Part shown: piece by piece, positions 16,206-28,398 of the stretch
Position numbering within the stretch: position 1 is the stretch's first letter
How the letters are laid out: each line of letters starts with the position of its first letter
DNA from: Frondihabitans sp. PhB188
GTDB lineage: Bacteria > Actinomycetota > Actinomycetes > Actinomycetales > Microbacteriaceae
Direction: 5' to 3'
DNA: 64,000 bases
Assembly (NCBI RefSeq): GCF_003752365.1
Contig: NZ_RJUO01000003.1
Location: 496,001-560,000, forward strand
Notes under the pieces: model-generated
Seen by the model: only the letters and a program-made list of their open reading frames with translations
Databases searched by the model: none
What the model was told of the DNA's origin: nothing
Made by a program: the position numbers and the translations under genes

Positions 16206-17240
16206 ATGCTCCTCACCTGCGACGACGTCTGGTTCGGCGGCTGGCGCGGGCCCAGCACCCTCGTGGTCACCGGCGGGCGGGTGGAGTTCGGGGGGCCGGT
16301 AGTTCCTGCGCCCTCTGCCGCGTCAGAGCCCGAGGCCCACATCCCGGGCGTCGTGCTCGCGCCCTTCACCGACTCGCACGTGCACCTCGGCCTCGTCGAC
16401 GCGGGGGCGCTCGTCGCGGGAGGTATCGGCCGGGTCGTCGACCTGGGCTGGGACCCCGAGGTCGCAGGAACGTGGCCCTCCCTCACGCGCGACCCGGCGA
16501 GCGCGTGGCCGGAGGTGTCGGTCGCCGGGCCCCTCCTCACGGCGCCGAACGGCTACCCATCGCGCTCGGGCTGGGCGCCCGACACCGCCTCCGTGGCCGT
16601 GGCGGCTCCCGACGACGCCGATGCGGTGGTCGAGGGCGTGGCCAGGGCCGCCGCCTCGCTCGTCAAGATCGCACTGAACACGGACGCCGGGCCGGTGTGG
16701 GACGACGCCACGCTCGATGCCGTGGTGACCGCCGCGCACGCGCGAGGGCTGCCGGTCTTCGCGCACGCGCAGGGCCTCGGCCAGGTGCGGCGCGCCGCAC
16801 GCGCCGGGGTCGACGCCCTCGCGCACACGCCGTTCTCGGAGCGCCTCGACGACGACCTGATCGCCGACCTCGCGCGCTCGATGGCGTGGATCTCGACGCT
16901 CGACATCCACCGGGGCACCGCGGCTCAGGACATCGCCGTCGACAACCTGGCCCGGTTCCATCGCCTCGGCGGGGCCGTGCTGTACGGGACGGACCTCGGC
17001 AACGGAGCGCTGCCGCCCGGCCTCGACGGCCGCGAGATCGCCGCCCTCGCCGCCGCCGGCCTTGGGCTCGACGACGTCGTGCGCGCGCTGACGCCGGGGA
17101 GCGGCGAGACCGGGTTCGACACGCGTCTCGTCACCTGGCTGCCGGCGCGGCCGACCCGGCTCGAGGACCTCGCCCGAGCCGCCGTCCTGTCCCCACCCGC
17201 CCTCCTCTCACTGGCAGACGAACAGGAGCTCGCCGAATGA
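16206..17240 (+). CDS. Amidohydrolase-superfamily enzyme
   Basis: 344 residues of the metal-dependent amidohydrolase fold. Visible ligands are H58 and H60 in DSHVHLG, K154 (candidate carbamylated lysine) in LVKIALN, H187 in VFAHAQG, H207 in ALAHTPF, and D263 in YGTDLGN. CAGGAT lies exactly six bases before the ATG (leaderless pattern). The stop overlaps the kynureninase-like gene by four bases, so the two enzymes are translationally coupled. This could be a hydrolase acting on an N-acyl or cyclic intermediate of aromatic amino-acid breakdown, but that is inferred only from the neighbour. Confidence 0.85.
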   Translation: MLLTCDDVWFGGWRGPSTLVVTGGRVEFGGPVVPAPSAASEPEAHIPGVVLAPFTDSHVHLGLVDAGALVAGGIGRVVDLGWDPEVAGTWPSLTRDPASAWPEVSVAGPLLTAPNGYPSRSGWAPDTASVAVAAPDDADAVVEGVARAAASLVKIALNTDAGPVWDDATLDAVVTAAHARGLPVFAHAQGLGQVRRAARAGVDALAHTPFSERLDDDLIADLARSMAWISTLDIHRGTAAQDIAVDNLARFHRLGGAVLYGTDLGNGALPPGLDGREIAALAAAGLGLDDVVRALTPGSGETGFDTRLVTWLPARPTRLEDLARAAVLSPPALLSLADEQELAE

Positions 17241-18445
17241 CCGATCTCGACACCACCGACCCCCTCGCCGCGTACGTCGATCGCTTCGTGCCCGCCGTCG
17301 GAGTGACCGCCTACTTGGACGGCAACTCGCTCGGCCGACCGCTGCGCGCGACCGCCGACCGGATCGCCGGCTTCGTCGCGCACGACTGGGGCACCCGCCT
17401 CATCCGCTCGTGGGACGACCGGTGGATGGACCTCCCCACCGTCGTCGGCGACCGCATCGGCGCGCTCGCCCTCGGCTCGGCCGCCGGCCAGACCGTGGTC
17501 GGCGACTCCACGACGGTGCTGCTCTACAAGGCCCTCCGCGCCGCTCTCGAGATCGGGCAGCGCGCCGGACGACACGAGATCGTGCTGGACGACGACCAGT
17601 TCCCGACCGACCGCTTCGTCGTCGAGGGCATCGCCCGCGAGCGAGGTGCGACGGTGCGCTGGATCCACGTCGACCCGGATGCCGGCGTCACGCCCGCACT
17701 CGTCGGCGACGCCGTCGGACCCGGCACGGCGGTCGTGCTGCTCAATCACGTGTCGTACCGGTCGGGGTTCCTGGCCGATCTGCCGGCGATCACCGCGATC
17801 GTGCACGACGCCGGGGCTCTCGTCGTGTGGGACCTCTGCCATTCGGCCGGCGTCGTGCCGATGTCGCTCGACGAGGCGGGCGCCGACCTCGCGGTGGGCT
17901 GCACGTACAAGTTCCTGAACGGCGGACCAGGAGCCCCGGCGTTCCTCTTCGCGCGGGCCGATCTGCAGGCGCGACTCGAGCAGCCGATCCAGGGATGGAT
18001 GGGCGCAGCCGACGTCTTCGCGATGGCGGCGTCCTACGAGCCGGCGCCGGGCATCCGCCGGTTCATCAGCGGCACCCCGCCCGTCCTCGGCATGCTGCCC
18101 ATGCAGGACATGCTCGACCTGATCGAGGAGGTCGGCATCGACGCGGTGCGCACCAAGTCGCTGGCGCTGACCGATCACGCGTTCGCCCTGGCCGACGAGC
18201 ACCTCGCCCCGCTCGGCGTCGTCACCGCCACTCCGCGCGACCCTGCGGTGCGCGGCAGCCACGTGACCCTCCGCCACCCCGACTTCAAGGCGCTCCTCCC
18301 CCGCCTCTGGGACGCCGGCGTGATCCCCGACTTCCGCAACCCTGACGCCCTGCGCCTCGGGCTCTCGCCGCTCTCGACGTCGTTCGCCGAGGTGGAGGCG
18401 GGCGTTGCGGCGGTGCGCGAGGCGCTCGCCTCGGGCGCGGCCTGA
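17237..18445 (+). CDS. kynU: Kynureninase-like PLP enzyme (aminotransferase class V fold)
   Basis: 402 residues, close to bacterial kynureninases, which cleave kynurenine to anthranilate and alanine. The family motif LDGNSLG is at residues 27-33. The cofactor aspartate and histidine lie in VVWDLCHSAG (D199, H202), and the PLP lysine is K225 in GCTYKFLNGGPG. There is no tryptophan dioxygenase or kynurenine formamidase gene of the usual family in the window. The pathway is therefore incomplete locally, and a related hydrolase activity cannot be excluded. It is coupled to the amidohydrolase by an ATGA overlap. Confidence 0.85.
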   Translation: MTDLDTTDPLAAYVDRFVPAVGVTAYLDGNSLGRPLRATADRIAGFVAHDWGTRLIRSWDDRWMDLPTVVGDRIGALALGSAAGQTVVGDSTTVLLYKALRAALEIGQRAGRHEIVLDDDQFPTDRFVVEGIARERGATVRWIHVDPDAGVTPALVGDAVGPGTAVVLLNHVSYRSGFLADLPAITAIVHDAGALVVWDLCHSAGVVPMSLDEAGADLAVGCTYKFLNGGPGAPAFLFARADLQARLEQPIQGWMGAADVFAMAASYEPAPGIRRFISGTPPVLGMLPMQDMLDLIEEVGIDAVRTKSLALTDHAFALADEHLAPLGVVTATPRDPAVRGSHVTLRHPDFKALLPRLWDAGVIPDFRNPDALRLGLSPLSTSFAEVEAGVAAVREALASGAA

Positions 18446-18471: not shown

Positions 18472-18532
18472 CGCGAGATGGCCCTCGTCGTCGCCAGCGC
18501 CCAGTCCCGCCGACGGCCACGGCCATCTCGCG
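18472..18532. repeat. Intergenic inverted repeat, family 1, copy A
   Basis: Perfect 12-bp arms CGCGAGATGGCC (18472-18483) and GGCCATCTCGCG (18521-18532) with a 37-base interior. It fills the space between the convergent kynureninase and bacteriocin-ATPase genes. Related copies sit at 44146-44202 and twice at 50878-51030. Confidence 0.8.
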
Positions 18533-18546
18533 AGGCTCGACGTGCC

Positions 18547-19212
18547 TCAGCGGCAGGTCACGCCCTCGCCTCCCAGGTCGATCCGCGAGTCGCACCACGA
18601 CGCAAGATCGACGTCGTGCGTGACCACGACGATCGCTGCCCCGGCATTGCGCAGCTCGTCGAGCACGTCGACGGCTCGGCCTGCGTTCTCCGCATCGAGC
18701 GCCGAGGACGGCTCGTCCGCGAGGACGATCCGCGGGCGGCGCAGGAGCAGTCGCGCGAGAGCGACCCGCTGCTGCTCGCCGCCGCTCATCGTGTGCGCTC
18801 GCCGTCGGTTCGCGCCGGCGAGCCCGACGCGGTCGAGCGCTGCCGACCGTCGCCGAGCGCGCTCGGAGCGGCTGATCCTGCTGCCGATCAGCCCCAGGTC
18901 GAGGTTGCGATCAACGGTCCACGAGCCCTCGAGCCCGTAGTCCTGGCGGAGGTGAGCGACGACCCCTCGAAACAGAGCGCGGCGTCGGCTCTCGTGGGGG
19001 CGAGTGACGTCGTCGCCCTCGACTCGAAGGCTCCCCGCGTCGAAGCGGTCGACCAGGCCGAGACAGTCGAGCAGGGTCGACTTGCCGGAGCCGCTTCGGC
19101 CCCAGATGGCGATGCTCTGCCCCGCGGCGACGTCGAAGGACAGGTCGCTCCACAGGGTGTTCGCGCCGCGCGCCTTCGAGACTCCGGAGACGGAGAGGGC
19201 TGGGTCGGTCAT
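18547..19212 (-). CDS. ABC ATPase of the bacteriocin operon
   Basis: 221 residues, a compact LolD/MacB-type ATPase. Walker A is GRSGSGKS at 38-45, the signature MSGGEQQR at 142-149, Walker B IVLADE at 162-167, and the switch histidine H199. It starts at 19212 behind GAAAGGA and overlaps the membrane-protein stop by four bases. An in-frame start 29 codons upstream is rejected because it lies inside that membrane gene and has no ribosome site. In lactococcin-972-type loci such an ATPase pairs with the large membrane protein and is thought to export the bacteriocin or protect the producer. Confidence 0.92.
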   Translation of the reverse strand: MTDPALSVSGVSKARGANTLWSDLSFDVAAGQSIAIWGRSGSGKSTLLDCLGLVDRFDAGSLRVEGDDVTRPHESRRRALFRGVVAHLRQDYGLEGSWTVDRNLDLGLIGSRISRSERARRRSAALDRVGLAGANRRRAHTMSGGEQQRVALARLLLRRPRIVLADEPSSALDAENAGRAVDVLDELRNAGAAIVVVTHDVDLASWCDSRIDLGGEGVTCR

Positions 19213-21191
19213 CGGAGATTCCTTTCGGTGCGGCGTTGCGCGCCCAGCGCCAGAGCCACGATCGCGGCATCGGCGACCACGCAGAGGGTCATCGCCCACC
19301 GGACGCCGTCTGCACTCGAGCCACGGGAGAAAGCAGCGACCAGGATCGCCGCGCTGAGCACGGCCAGGCAGACGAGTGCCGGTGTCATGACACGGAAAAG
19401 CGTGACGCCGTGGATGAACCGAAGAGCGACCGCACGCCGGCTCCGCTGAGCGACGATTGTCGCCAGGACCAGGGCGGACAGGACGAGCGAGACGATCGCC
19501 ACGCCTCCGATGAAGAGGCTTGCTCTCACTGTCACGGACTGCTCGGCCAGCCGGACGGCGGCGAGATCTTTCACGGATTCGATGGCGCCGATCTGGTCGG
19601 TGAGGCCCGCCGCGTCGATCGCCGCCTGAATGGAGGCGGGGTCGTCGAAGAGGATCTCCGCCGAGGTGACTGTCGAGCTGAGCCAGTTGTCGGAGAGGAG
19701 CGAGGCCTCAGACGGCAGCACGGCGATCACTGGCTCGGTGAGCGAACTGCGAGACACGACCCATGTCTGGAATGAGAAGATTTCCTGGTCTGACGCGATC
19801 GGAATCACGTCTATAGCCGGTGCCTCGCGGCCGTCACCTGCCTCGGAGCCGACCTGATAGCTGATCCAGCTTCTGTACTCGGCCACGATCTGGGCGCTCT
19901 GTTCCACAAGGGTTTCGGGGATGAGTAGCGTCAATGAGGTGTCGGGCAGATCCGACGCGACCACTGCCGAACCGTCGGATCGATTGACTCTTACTTCGTC
20001 GAGGTAGCGGTCCGTGACGATGAGGCTGTTCCCCCTACCTGGTGAATAACCGTCGTCGGGGTCCATCGGAGTGAAGGTGATCATGGCGCGTCCACCATCG
20101 AGTTCCGTTCGAATAATCCGGGCGACGACCGACTCGCTTTCGTCGAATTCGGCTGGTTGTGAGCGAAACGACAGCGCGAAGTAGTCGCTGACCGAATCCC
20201 ACTGCTGCCGCTCGCGCGTGTTCGCCGCAACCGTGCCGGCCGCAAGAACCGTGGGGCTCAGGGTCGTCAGGACAAGAGGAAGAATGCTCGCGTGCACGCC
20301 GGCCGCTCCGACCACGATCCGTCGGGACGGCGCCCTGACCGCTAGGACCGAGGCGAGACCGGATCCCGTCGTGGTGACAACCGCGGCGGCGGTGAATGCC
20401 ATTGACACAATGCAGATGGCGCCGCATGCCACTCCGGCTGCCACACCTAGTCGCCCGATCTGGGCACCCCCGTTGTAGGCGACGATGGCGACGAATCCCA
20501 GAACGCAGGCGCCGACGGCTGACACCGCGCCCGTCAGCCCGGTGATAAGACTCTCGTGAATGACGATGACGGATCGGGACCGCCCTGCCAGACGTGCAAT
20601 GGCGGCTCGCCGACGGCTGGAGACGGCGTCGAAAATGCAGCCCAGGGCGAGCATGAGAACAGCGGCAAGGCTGACTGAGACGATCGGGACCTCGTCGGCA
20701 ATCCAGAACCCGATACCCACCACCCCGAAGGGAAGCGTCGAGACCGACATGCCCCGGGCGTTGAGCGCGAGGGCGTAGGCGTCAGCGCCCTCTTCACCCG
20801 CGTCAGTCACGTACATACCGTCGAGCTCGGCATCGGGGAGTTCTCTGCCGTCGGCGAACACCGTCCTCTGCGATCGGCTGAAGTCGGGATAACCGTCAGT
20901 CGATGCCGTAGCCAGGGCCGTTGCTGGTTCCGAGTTGATGATGAAGAGCTTTCGCGAGGTCGCACCATCAGTGGCGGCTGTCACGCTCTTGTAGAGCGTC
21001 AGGTGCTGGCGCCGCGCCTCGTCGATCATGAGCTGTCGGGCCTCGGACCGGGTCCGACCGTCGCCCTTGTCCCAGACGGTCACGACCGTCTGAGTGCCGC
21101 GCGGCGCGAGCTCGTCGCTCGTCCGCACGAAGAAGAACGCCATAAGCAAGGCGAGCACGATTGCCGCCCCGACGCTGATTCGCAGAGCCAT
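19209..21191 (-). CDS. Bacteriocin-associated integral membrane protein (DUF1430-like permease)
   Basis: 660 residues. A single N-terminal helix (about 5-25) is followed by an extracytoplasmic region of about 130 residues, then a block of membrane helices (about 155-320). A second large external domain (about 320-540) and three final helices follow. This layout fits the putative immunity or export proteins of lactococcin-972 loci and resembles FtsX/MacB permeases. The ATG at 21191 was chosen because GGAGAAGG precedes it; the more upstream ATG at 21239 has no ribosome site and would place a strong hairpin in the coding region. It is coupled to the ATPase by ATGA. Confidence 0.8.
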   Translation of the reverse strand: MALRISVGAAIVLALLMAFFFVRTSDELAPRGTQTVVTVWDKGDGRTRSEARQLMIDEARRQHLTLYKSVTAATDGATSRKLFIINSEPATALATASTDGYPDFSRSQRTVFADGRELPDAELDGMYVTDAGEEGADAYALALNARGMSVSTLPFGVVGIGFWIADEVPIVSVSLAAVLMLALGCIFDAVSSRRRAAIARLAGRSRSVIVIHESLITGLTGAVSAVGACVLGFVAIVAYNGGAQIGRLGVAAGVACGAICIVSMAFTAAAVVTTTGSGLASVLAVRAPSRRIVVGAAGVHASILPLVLTTLSPTVLAAGTVAANTRERQQWDSVSDYFALSFRSQPAEFDESESVVARIIRTELDGGRAMITFTPMDPDDGYSPGRGNSLIVTDRYLDEVRVNRSDGSAVVASDLPDTSLTLLIPETLVEQSAQIVAEYRSWISYQVGSEAGDGREAPAIDVIPIASDQEIFSFQTWVVSRSSLTEPVIAVLPSEASLLSDNWLSSTVTSAEILFDDPASIQAAIDAAGLTDQIGAIESVKDLAAVRLAEQSVTVRASLFIGGVAIVSLVLSALVLATIVAQRSRRAVALRFIHGVTLFRVMTPALVCLAVLSAAILVAAFSRGSSADGVRWAMTLCVVADAAIVALALGAQRRTERNLR

Positions 21192-21207
21192 CCCAACCCT
21201 TCTCCGA

Positions 21208-21237
21208 GAGCCGGCCGCCTCGGATGGCGGCCGGCTC
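21208..21237 (-). terminator. Attenuator-like hairpin between bacteriocin and transporter genes
   Basis: Perfect 12-bp arms GAGCCGGCCGCC and GGCGGCCGGCTC with a six-base loop. The hairpin starts five bases after the bacteriocin stop codon and ends 16 bases before the membrane-protein start. No U-run follows, so it may be a partial terminator or an RNA stabiliser that keeps bacteriocin mRNA in excess. Confidence 0.65.
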
Positions 21238-21241
21238 ATGT

Positions 21242-21604
21242 TCACTTGACGAATCGGTAATACGCGGAGTTCCCGCTCCACGTCTTCTTGACTGTGGCCT
21301 TCGACGTCTGACCCTTATTCGTGTCGTCGGTCCTGAATGTCTTTCCGGTTCCGTTCTTGACAGTCGATCCGTGCTTGCGCGTTTTGTGGAAGAAATTCGA
21401 GTAGGCCTCGTTGTTTGTTCCGTACGTCCAGGTGCCACCGCCCTCCGGCGTGACGACGTAGTTGATCGAAACCCTGCTGTCATCGAAGTTGACAGAGCCC
21501 GACGCTGCCGAAGGAGCCGGTGTCTCTGCGGACGCAACCTCGGGTGCGGCCAGGAGCGACGCCGCGGCGAGTCCGACGACAAGGGCGATGGAATTAATTT
21601 TCAT
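21242..21604 (-). CDS. Lactococcin-972-family bacteriocin precursor
   Basis: 120 residues, ATG at 21604 behind GGAG. Residues 1-26 form a Sec signal peptide (KIN, hydrophobic core, then ASA before Glu27). The mature part shows the family hallmarks: GGGTWTYG near residues 54-61, an AYSNFFHKTRKHGSTV segment matching the SNYHH...HSATV region of lactococcin 972, and an aromatic C-terminus (SAYYRFVK). There are no cysteines. Compared with the 66-residue lactococcin 972 peptide it carries about 28 extra N-terminal residues. The family binds lipid II and blocks septum formation in close relatives. Codon use is visibly less GC-rich than in neighbours, suggesting acquisition by transfer. Confidence 0.88.
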   Translation of the reverse strand: MKINSIALVVGLAAASLLAAPEVASAETPAPSAASGSVNFDDSRVSINYVVTPEGGGTWTYGTNNEAYSNFFHKTRKHGSTVKNGTGKTFRTDDTNKGQTSKATVKKTWSGNSAYYRFVK

Positions 21605-21621
21605 AGTTCTCCAAACGAATG

Positions 21622-21690: not shown

Positions 21691-22458
21691 ATGACCACCG
21701 GAGACGCCTTCGAACCCGACCAGCGCTACGCCGCCAACGCCACCTCGTTCGGGGCCGCGGCCGAGGTGTACGAGCGCGGGCGGCCGTCCTACCCGGCCAC
21801 GGCCGTCGACTGGTTGCTGCCCGAGGGCGCACACCACGTGCTCGACCTCGGCGCCGGAACCGGCAAGCTTACGCGGATGCTCGTCGACCGCGTACCCCTG
21901 GTGACGGCTGTCGAGCCCTCCGAGGGCATGCGCGAGCAGCTGGTGCGGTCGGTCCCGGGCGCCCAGGCGCTGCCGGGTTCTGCCGAGCGCCTGCCCCTCG
22001 ACGGCGAGAGCGTCGACGCGATCTTCGCGGCGCAGGCCTGGCACTGGGTCGACGTCGACCGGGCTGTGCCCGAGGCTGCCCGAGTGCTCCGGCCGGGCGG
22101 CGTGCTCGCTCTGCTCTGGAACATCCGCATCGTCACCGACCCGTGGATGATCGCCCTCGACGAGATCATCGCCCCGGCCAGCGAGAGCGACGCCGAGTCC
22201 GAGAGCCCTCGCGTCGGCCCGCCGTTCTCGGAGATCGAGCGCCGCGACTTCGAGTGGGTCAACGAGATCACGCCCGACGAGGTGATCGACATGGTCGCCT
22301 CGCGCAGCTACATCCTGACCCTCCCGGAGGGCGAACGGCTCGAGCAGCTCGAACGGGTGCGGACCCTGCTGGCGACGCACCCCGACACGGCAGGCCGGGC
22401 AACAGTGGGCGTCCCGTACGTGACGCGGTGCTCGAAGGCCACGCTCGCGGCCGAATAA
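21691..22458 (+). CDS. Class I SAM-dependent methyltransferase
   Basis: 255 residues. The SAM-binding glycine loop is VLDLGAGTGKLTRML at about 48-62, the acidic loop is AVEPSEGM, and the post-I motif region is DAIFAAQAWHWVDVD, a QAWHW form typical of the UbiE/COQ5-like methyltransferase group. CAGGGT lies six bases before the ATG (leaderless pattern). It diverges from the bacteriocin gene across only 86 bases. There is no evidence that it acts on the bacteriocin, and the substrate is unknown. Confidence 0.88.
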   Translation: MTTGDAFEPDQRYAANATSFGAAAEVYERGRPSYPATAVDWLLPEGAHHVLDLGAGTGKLTRMLVDRVPLVTAVEPSEGMREQLVRSVPGAQALPGSAERLPLDGESVDAIFAAQAWHWVDVDRAVPEAARVLRPGGVLALLWNIRIVTDPWMIALDEIIAPASESDAESESPRVGPPFSEIERRDFEWVNEITPDEVIDMVASRSYILTLPEGERLEQLERVRTLLATHPDTAGRATVGVPYVTRCSKATLAAE

Positions 22459-25808: not shown

Positions 25809-25850
25809 TGGAGGCCGAACCCCTGCAAGGGTTCGGCCTCCAGCTTTTTA
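25809..25850. terminator. Strong hairpin with T-run downstream of nrdE
   Basis: Fourteen perfect pairs (25809-25822 with 25829-25842, core GGAGGCCGAACCC) around a CTGCAA loop. The T-run GCTTTTTAA is on the plus-strand side, although nrdE and the next gene are on the minus strand. It is either a bidirectional terminator for nrdE or the end of an unseen plus-strand transcript. Confidence 0.75.
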
Positions 25851-25855
25851 AGTTG

Positions 25856-27961
25856 TCACAGCATGCACGAGACGCAGCCGTCGACCTCGGTGCCCTCGAG
25901 CGCCATCTGACGGAGACGGATGTAGTAGATCGTCTTGATGCCCTTGCGCCATGCGTAGATCTGGGCCTTGTTGATGTCGCGGGTGGTCGCCGTGTCTTTG
26001 AAGAACAGCGTGAGCGAGAGGCCCTGGTCGACGTGCTGCGTGGCCGCGGCATAGGTGTCGATGATCTTCTCGGGGCCGATCTCGTACGCGTCGGTGTAGT
26101 AGTCGAGGTTGTCGTTGGTCATGAAGGGCGCGGGGTAGTAGACGCGGCCCAGCTTGCCCTCCTTGCGGATCTCGATCTTCGACGCGATCGGGTGGATCGA
26201 CGAGGTGGAGTGGTTGATGTACGAGATCGAACCGGTCGGCGGGACGGCCTGGAGGTTCTGGTTGTAGATGCCGTGCTCCATGACGCTGGCCTTGAGCGCG
26301 CGCCAGTCGTCCTGCGTCGGGATCTCCACGTTCGCGTCGGCGAACAGCTTCGCAGCGCGCTCGGTCGACGGGACCCACTCGGACTCGGTGTACTTGTCGA
26401 AGAACTCGCCCGACGCGTACTTCGAGTCGTCGAAGCCGCCGAACTTCACCTTGCGCTCGATCGCGATCTTGTTCGAGGCGCGCAGCGCGTGGAACAGCAC
26501 CGTGTAGAAGTAGATGTTCGTGAAGTCGATGGCCTCTTCGGTGCCGTAGTGCACGCGCTCACGGGCCAGGTAGCCGTGGAGGTTCATCTGCCCGAGGCCG
26601 ATGGCGTGCGAGGAGTCGTTGCCGACCTCGATGGAGCGGACCGACGTGATGTGGCTCATGTCGCTGACGGCGCTGAGCCCGCGGATGGCGGTCTCGACGG
26701 TGCGGCCGAAGTTGTCGCTGTCCATCGAGAGGGCGATGTTCATCGACCCGAGGTTGCAGGAGATGTCCTTGCCGATCTCGTCGTACGAGAGGTCTTCGTT
26801 GAAGGTGGTCGGCGTGTTGACCTGCAGGATCTCGGAGCAGAGGTTCGACATGTTGATCCGGCCCTTGATCGGGTTGGCCTTGTTCACCGTGTCCTCGAAC
26901 ACGATGTAGGGGTAGCCCGACTCGAACTGGATCTCGGCGATGGTCTGGAAGAACTCGCGAGCGTTGATCTTCGTCTTCTTGATGCGAGCGTCGTCGACCA
27001 TCTCGCGGTACTTGTCGGTGATCGAGATGTCGCCGAAGGGGACGCCGTAGACGCGCTCCACGTCGTAGGGCGAGAACAGGTACATGTCCTCGTCCTTCTT
27101 CGCGAGCTCGAACGTGATGTCGGGCACGACGACACCGAGTGACAGCGTCTTGATGCGGATCTTCTCGTCGGCGTTCTCACGCTTCGTGTCGAGGAATCGC
27201 AGGATGTCGGGGTGGTGCGCCGACAGGTAGACCGCGCCGGCCCCCTGGCGTGCGCCGAGCTGGTTGGCGTAGCTGAAGCTGTCTTCGAGGAGCTTCATGA
27301 CGGGGATGATGCCCGAGGACTGGTTCTCGATCTGCTTGATCGGCGCGCCGGCCTCGCGGATGTTCGAGAGCGACAGGGCGACGCCGCCGCCGCGCTTCGA
27401 CAGCTGGAGCGACGAGTTGATGCCGCGCGAGATCGACTCCATGTTGTCTTCGATGCGCAGGAGGAAGCAGCTGACGAGCTCGCCGCGCTGGGCCTTGGCC
27501 GTGTTGAGGAAGGTCGGGGTGGCCGGCTGGAAGCGGCCGGCGATGATCTCCTCGACGAGGTCGATCGCGAGCTGCTCGTCGCCCTGGGCGAGGCCGAGGG
27601 CGGTCATGACGACGCGGTCCTCGAAGCGCTCGAGGTAGCGCTTTCCGTCGAAGGTCTTGAGCGTGTAGGAGGTGTAGTACTTGAACGCGCCGAGGAACGT
27701 CTGGAAGCGGAACTTCTTCGAGTACGCGAGGTCGTTGAGCTTCTCGATGAACTCGAACGAGTACATGTCGATCGTCGCCTGCTCGTAGTAGTCGTTCTCG
27801 ACCAGGTAGTCGAGACGCTCCTTGAGGTTGTGGAAGAAGACCGTGTTCTGGTTGACGTGCTGCAGGAAGTACTGCTTGGCCGCCTCGCGATCCCTGTCGA
27901 ACTGGATCTCGCCGTTGCTCCCGTAGAGGTTGAGCATGGCGTTCAGCGCGTGGTAGTCCAT
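25856..27961 (-). CDS. nrdE: Class Ib ribonucleotide reductase, alpha subunit
   Basis: 701 residues from the ATG at 27961 ([10 protein letters not shown]). A TTG at 28012, preceded at some distance by AGAAGGA and inside nrdI, would add 17 residues and is an alternative start. Catalytic landmarks are LVSCFLLR for the first redox cysteine, the NLCSEI segment with the thiyl-radical cysteine, [18 protein letters not shown], and a C-terminal CVSCML cysteine pair that is recharged by NrdH. The enzyme makes dNDPs in the cytoplasm with NrdF. It follows nrdH and nrdI and should share the NrdR-controlled promoter. Confidence 0.97.
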
Positions 27962-27981
27962 ACCCGCGTTTGGCCCCGCGA

Positions 27982-28398
27982 TTACCTCGAGGTCATCGAC
28001 TGCTGCGTCCAAAATTGGTCCAATCCTTCTTGTACTGCTCGTACGTCGTCCGGGGTGCCGAAGACCTCGGCACGGTAGAGGAGGGGCACTCCGCACTTGG
28101 CGCTGACGATCTCGCCGGCCAGGCAGTAGCCCTCTCCGAAGTTGGTGTTGCCCGTCGCTATGACTCCGCGGATGAGGTCTCTGTTGACCTCGTCGTTCAG
28201 AAAGCGGATGACCTGCTTGGGGACGGCGCCTCGCCCTTCGCCTCCGCCGTAGGTGGGGAGGACGAGGACGAAGGGGTCACGGGCGTGGAGCGGCTCGTCG
28301 GTCGGGAAGAGCGGGATCCGCTCGGCCGGGAGGCCCAGCTTCTCGACGAAGCGCGCAGTGTTGCCCGACACGCTCGAGAAGTAGATGAGGTGAGTCAC
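27982..28398 (-). CDS. nrdI: NrdI flavodoxin-like activator of NrdF
   Basis: 138 residues. The FMN phosphate loop SSVSGNT is at about residues 8-14, the [12 protein letters not shown] segment near 50-60, and [15 protein letters not shown] near 82-96. NrdI supplies oxidant or electrons to assemble the dimanganese-tyrosyl cofactor of NrdF. It lies between nrdH and nrdE as in other class Ib operons. Confidence 0.95.

Follow-up and report, generated by a model that had tools for sequence, protein, structure and literature searches.

The peptides of the lactococcin 972 family are proteins without modifications, and their target, lipid II, is also a target of drugs. Plasmid pBL1 of Lactococcus lactis carries the operon lcn972-orf2-orf3 (locus L133), which runs from precursor through permease to ATPase and yields a mature peptide of 66 residues. 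Streptococcin B of Streptococcus pneumoniae is described as the product of a comparable three-gene, lactococcin 972-type operon, scbABC, of which orphan BC forms are common (PMC11796350); according to that source, B and C products had as of 2024 been verified in no lactococcin 972 locus. Mediterrocin, from Mediterraneibacter gnavus, is reported as a lactococcin 972-related protein with a Sec signal and a long mature form, 89 residues by mass spectrometry (PMC12345188). Loci of this type in Actinomycetota are already in print for Brevibacterium (PMC5719810) and Corynebacterium (PMC12188740), and an actinomycetotal host is not new for them. Here we describe a three-gene operon of this type at positions 18547-21604, on the minus strand, of a 64,000-nucleotide stretch of Frondihabitans sp. 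PhB188 (Microbacteriaceae; contig NZ_RJUO01000003.1, positions 496,001 to 560,000; hereafter the window). We regard it as very likely that the operon was acquired horizontally and encodes a secreted bacteriocin and an immunity complex, with a hairpin between the two. It is a divergent addition to the lactococcin 972 kind and no new kind of system; new are its insertion site, the hairpin, transporter-only loci among its relatives and an unrelated second module.

The three genes, for precursor, permease and ATP-binding cassette (ABC) ATPase, point in one direction, and the stop codon of the permease gene is overlapped by the ATG of the ATPase gene (ATGA). As an operon of this kind we counted a precursor gene followed on the same strand by genes for a large permease and an ABC ATPase, which is what the window holds. 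A sequence-only reading had proposed a 120-residue precursor with a GGGTWTYG motif, an SNFFHK...HGSTV segment and no cysteines, ATGA coupling of the other two genes, and the three kinds of gene typical of lactococcin 972 loci. All of these are present, and the genes are arranged as in pBL1 and, according to its published description, as in the streptococcin B locus (PMC11796350). Both curated family models against which the precursor (21242-21604, minus strand) was to be compared recognise it: it scores 55.1 bits on PF09683 (cut-off 22, E 1.1e-14) and 40.1 bits on TIGR01653 (cut-off 32.1). Since these scores exceed the cut-offs and the sequence also matches PDB entries 9hkj (E 3.7e-5) and 2lgn, lactococcin 972 itself (E 8.4e-4), the likeness goes beyond chance, and the predicted protein belongs to the lactococcin 972 family. 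On the mediterrocin model NF052268 it reaches 26.2 bits, below the cut-off of 40.

A Shine-Dalgarno-like GGAG (21609-21612) stands just 5' of the precursor ATG. The N-terminus is a hydrophobic stretch ending in A-x-A, which we read by eye as a Sec-type signal peptide of residues 1-26 (21527-21604, minus strand), cut after ...VASA; a crude script placed the cut at residue 15. Cleavage after residue 26 leaves a mature peptide of 94 residues with a computed isoelectric point of 9.7 and no cysteine. It comprises an N-terminal extension, residues 27-54 (21443-21526), which is absent from lactococcin 972 (pBL1 precursor; 2lgn, 66 residues), and a core domain, residues 55-120 (21245-21442), which opens with GGGTWTYG (residues 55-62) and matches the whole 62-position model of PF09683 over residues 55-116. 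The precursor would be secreted by Sec and its signal peptide removed, and the product acting outside the cell would be a protein of about 94 residues, basic, unmodified and free of cysteine. By analogy with lactococcin 972, its probable action is to bind lipid II in closely related bacteria and to stop wall synthesis at the septum.

How far does the resemblance to known operons extend? Because all three genes match their pBL1 counterparts (identities of 32% over 68 residues for the precursor, 20% over 303 for the permease and 32% over 210 for the ATPase), the window holds a divergent homologue of the whole pBL1 operon, not of the peptide alone. A profile of 31 Actinomycetota permeases, the window's included, likewise matches the pBL1 permease (E 1.2e-36). 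The pBL1 operon is plasmid-borne, whereas that of the window is a chromosomal insertion in a member of Actinomycetota. Like the window, the mediterrocin cluster is described as pairing its peptide with a permease, of DUF1430, and an ABC protein (PMC12345188), but it is larger and includes a regulator and mobile genes; scbABC, likened here by its published description, differs from the window operon in being controlled by competence (PMC11796350). A first contig scan brought up no relative. A second scan, based on a three-row alignment and using two short patterns only, found four, all in Curtobacterium (L114-L117). These have the operon order of the window, permeases 25-27% identical to the window's, and mature peptides similar in length and 47-54% identical. 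A plasmid search with the permease gave no match, and a protein search with it gave matches in 20 of the 398 family genomes.

The operon lies in a 3.2-kb cassette. To its left is a kynureninase-like gene (17237-18445, plus strand; TIGR01814 220.2 bits, below the cut-off of 246.4) and to its right a methyltransferase-like gene (21691-22458, plus strand; weak matches to several methyltransferase models), both outside the cassette. Because these flanking genes adjoin in four of six sibling genomes (G002, G003, G004 and G005, with 18-98 bp between the aligned ends), the cassette is an insertion. The flank orthologues lie far apart in G006, and G001 has no close match to the kynureninase-like gene. 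Among the seven genomes of the genus, only that of the window carries the cassette at this site; the operon copy of G005 stands elsewhere in its genome. G+C content at third codon positions is 74.4% in the precursor gene, 77.0% in the permease gene and 86.5% in the ATPase gene, and 92.8% and 91.8% in the flanks. At the cassette ends no direct repeat, terminal repeat or recombinase was recognised.

Matches to PF09683 were found in 3 of 7 genus genomes, 43 of 398 family genomes (52 places) and 4 of 396 phylum genomes, the window's own genome being included in each count. Could the secreted protein modulate the cell wall or septation of its maker, rather than serve as a weapon? Inhibition of septum formation by lactococcin 972 is on record (PMC11796350, PMC12345188) and would suit such a role; the patchy, accessory spread, the clean insertion where siblings have an empty site and the orphan transporters described next do not, and we consider a modulator very improbable.

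Do the permease and the ATPase export the bacteriocin, or do they protect its producer? A dedicated exporter or folding aid would agree with the co-transcribed layout (ATGA overlap) and with the NCBI name of the ATPase's best NCBIfam model, TIGR03608, 'putative bacteriocin export ABC transporter'. However, the precursor bears its own signal peptide, as read by eye, and four loci have kept the transporter but no functional bacteriocin gene. In L069 (genome G005) a stop codon interrupts the precursor in frame, in L112 (G102) a 34-residue precursor remnant is left, and in L110 (G166) and L113 (G163) there is no precursor in the roughly 700 bases upstream; the permease and ATPase frames of all four are full-length. 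In the whole of genome G166 a PF09683 search at E 1e-3 found nothing, and the three precursor-less modules (L110, L112 and L113) fall at three distinct positions of the permease tree. Comparable cases are reported from 157 of 571 pneumococcal genomes (PMC11796350), from incomplete Streptococcus mitis loci with a transporter and no bacteriocin (PMC11921387) and from Propionibacterium acnes (PMC4746626), and in Lactococcus a BceAB-like transporter is reported to give resistance to lactococcin 972 (PMC7438565). Because four loci keep an intact permease and ATPase while the bacteriocin gene is broken or gone, we favour immunity over export: the two predicted proteins most likely serve immunity, and dedicated export is decidedly unlikely. 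They would form an ABC complex of the MacB/FtsX class (type VII), most likely not a peptide exporter, that acts from the outside, detaches the bacteriocin from its target in the membrane and so protects the producer, as proposed for BceAB and bacitracin.

The ATPase (18547-19212, minus strand; 221 residues) matches ABC_tran at 105 bits. The permease gene (19209-21191, minus strand) offers two starts, the first ATG at 21239, giving 676 residues, and the ATG at 21191, giving 660. The latter aligns with the starts of three of the four Curtobacterium relatives; 87% of 31 permeases have a Met at this position, and this ATG has its own GGAGAAGG, all in favour of the 660-residue membrane protein proposed earlier. 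About eight membrane helices are predicted in two repeats, each of one helix, an outer domain and three helices; the helix-outer domain-helices layout of BceAB, MacB and FtsX complexes (type VII) would thus, in a weak model, occur twice in one chain. Comparison of the N-terminal with the C-terminal half by hhalign (probability 87% over 82 columns) is suggestive only of an internal duplication. Foldseek searches with the permease model gave YbbAP as the best match (E 3.3e-8), with LolCDE, a MacB-like protein of pneumococcus and FtsEX next (E 0.009-0.03).

Is this architecture the rule among related loci? We examined 55 precursor loci, namely the window and 54 more (51 from the family, 3 from the phylum). 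In 26, the precursor has a large permease like that of the window next to it, and in 25 both permease and ATPase follow the precursor; in L057 the permease lies upstream of the precursor, and no ATPase was detected. Elsewhere in the family, some predicted lactococcin 972 genes are paired with an unrelated module. This second type, found at 23 of the 55 loci, has four components: a lipoprotein-like protein (about 200 residues), a PG_binding_1-domain protein, and a short ATPase with a permease that is also short (about 360 residues) (L058, L066, L068, L070, L072-L075, L078, L079, L082, L084, L086-L088, L090, L091, L093, L094, L096, L101 and L105, and L059, which is without the ATPase). Homology between the large permease and the short permease of the second type was unsupported, with an hhalign probability of 16.6% for the whole protein and lower values otherwise, and the lipoprotein-like protein of L075 has no Pfam or NCBIfam match. 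Going by their published description, an ATPase with two membrane proteins (PMC5719810), the Brevibacterium loci may belong to the second type. The remaining 6 of the 55 loci have neither type. A lipoprotein-like gene is near in five of these, without permease or ATPase: downstream in L060, L063, L071 and L106, and upstream on the other strand in L062; at L109 nothing was recognised. The lipoprotein-like protein may be a stand-alone immunity protein. In genome G102 both types are represented among three lactococcin 972-like loci, and an orphan transporter module is present as well (L061, L083, L088, L112).

Between the precursor stop codon and the likely permease start of the window lies an inverted repeat of 12 bp without mismatch, closing a 6-nt loop (21208-21237, minus strand), and RNA folding of 21192-21244 gives -30 kcal/mol (z -3.47). 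We surveyed such hairpins with one scoring scheme (score at least 27, within 60 nt after the precursor stop). Among 29 large-permease loci (the 26 above plus L114, L116 and L117), 15 have one, compared with 20 of 1740 random control windows, which were drawn from the same loci and are mostly coding; as the loci are related, the counts are not independent. Second-type loci have a hairpin in 7 of 23 cases (16 of 1380 control windows) and loci of neither type in none of 6 (5 of 360). At ordinary gene ends, examined in 25 precursor loci plus L110-L113, the corresponding counts are 0/29 for the permease-ATPase junction and 3/29 for the ATPase end. When the loci are grouped by hand into 17 permease clades, 8 contain a hairpin when L061 and the group of L067 are included, and 7 when L061 is left out. 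The hairpin is wholly intergenic in 10 of the 15 loci (the window, L056, L064, L077, L098, L099, L100, L103, L116 and L117), extends over the earliest possible start of the permease gene in L067, L076, L089 and L097, and in L061 lies within the permease reading frame. The other 14 of the 29 loci, among them L065, L104, L108 and L114, have none; of the four Curtobacterium loci, L115 (identical with L056), L116 and L117 carry it.

Stem letters vary among the loci, and in L064 compared with L116, and L098 compared with L103, one pair is changed on both sides with pairing kept, as judged by eye. In pBL1 a 17-bp stem occupies the same place (L133, 3517-3556) and runs into T's, a feature that the window lacks; none of 200 control windows had such a hairpin. 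A plasmid locus of Streptococcus salivarius shows a 16-pair stem after the precursor (0/200 control windows), and a Streptomyces plasmid (NZ_CP108417.1) shows no hairpin within 60 nt and one within 100 nt. Partial termination or mRNA processing that raises the bacteriocin message over the immunity message occurs in other bacteriocin operons. The hairpin described here probably sets the ratio of bacteriocin to immunity in a similar way: it would end or process part of the transcripts, leaving more bacteriocin mRNA than immunity mRNA. Our literature search turned up no paper on this hairpin, the 1999 operon paper of Martinez et al. being outside its reach; figures and tables of PMC11921387 mention terminator regions.

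Several results weigh against a bacteriocin operon with its own immunity complex, or against parts of that explanation. On TIGR01654, a predicted seven-transmembrane (7TM) bacteriocin-associated family, the permease scores 59.6 bits (E 2.1e-16); because this is far under the cut-off of 189.35, we call it a relative and not a member, so that the expected tie to this family holds as kinship and fails as membership. For calibration, the pBL1 permease reaches 706.3 bits, and two Curtobacterium permeases gave no TIGR01654 match at E 1e-3. The ATPase scores 190.8 bits on TIGR03608, below the cut-off of 254.85; the pBL1 ATPase, with 253.4 bits, is itself just under it. The models have low confidence by the predicted local distance difference test (pLDDT), 59.5 for the permease and 38.8 for the mature peptide, the latter from AlphaFold2 with five sequences. 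For the peptide, a beta-sandwich like that of 2lgn may be expected from its sequence homology to 2lgn and 9hkj. In VIA-align, BceAB gives Z 5.6 at a root-mean-square deviation of 8.7, and unrelated chains, coiled coils and small domains with Z up to 8.1, rank above the type VII chains (Z 5.3-5.6); because of this ranking, a type VII (MacB/FtsX) fold is only suggested for the modelled permease. For the resistance seen in Lactococcus, the authors of PMC7438565 suspect an indirect route (dlt) in the case of lactococcin 972. No T run follows the window hairpin, which is hence no textbook terminator. In L111 (G006) the precursor is gone, the permease frame is broken and the hairpin is retained, a picture of general decay. 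A scan for promoter consensus found nothing convincing, the sole match overlapping the start codon, although actinobacterial promoters are poorly covered by such a scan.

Poor promoter evidence, together with decay in the siblings G005 (in-frame stop) and G006, would also be expected if the operon were silent or decaying in the strain of the window. Three intact frames, Shine-Dalgarno-like sites, conserved family residues and the limited reach of the promoter scan count against such a relic, which we hold to be unlikely.

We return to the peptide of the putative bacteriocin operon. The sequence-only reading had judged its mature form about 28 residues longer than lactococcin 972 and perhaps a distinct subgroup. 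The extension is real and partly common to the Curtobacterium relatives. The window and the four Curtobacterium peptides share a PEGGG[TS]W entry to the core and an ...AYYRF end; the extension motif EHG...IP of Curtobacterium was not seen in the window peptide. The subgroup stands as this sequence cluster, but not by length alone; a long mature form has a precedent because that of mediterrocin has 89 residues. At least 50 residues precede the core in 11 of the 26 large-permease loci and in 1 of the 23 second-type loci (p 0.0024, with relatedness ignored and start codons chosen by hand); the single second-type exception, L059, has an uncertain start. The idea that long extensions form one clade was rejected, the permease tree needing at least six changes and 19 of 500 shuffles being as low. 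Judging from this tree, long extensions have been gained or lost repeatedly.

Could these features be parts of a single design? The hairpin would then be a regulatory element common to the family, one that sets how much bacteriocin is made relative to the immunity complex and has been kept from lactococci to actinobacteria despite sequence turnover; in Microbacteriaceae a single family of lipid II bacteriocins would be served by two unrelated self-protection modules; and the extension would have arisen with the large-permease module, as the handle that lets this permease recognise its own peptide and remove it. As a joint proposal this is doubtful. With intact operons, transporter-only loci, an alternative module and the hairpin, the window and its relatives make a compact test set for self-protection.

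Two further inverted repeats were noted. One, at 18472-18532, has 22-nt arms and sits between the convergent ATPase and kynureninase-like genes; it is a possible terminator, perhaps for both, with a z of only -1.79 and no T run. The other, at 25809-25842, is near-perfect (94%), consists of two 17-nt arms without a spacer, and closely follows a large minus-strand reading frame (25856-28096), whose product we take to resemble ribonucleotide reductase.

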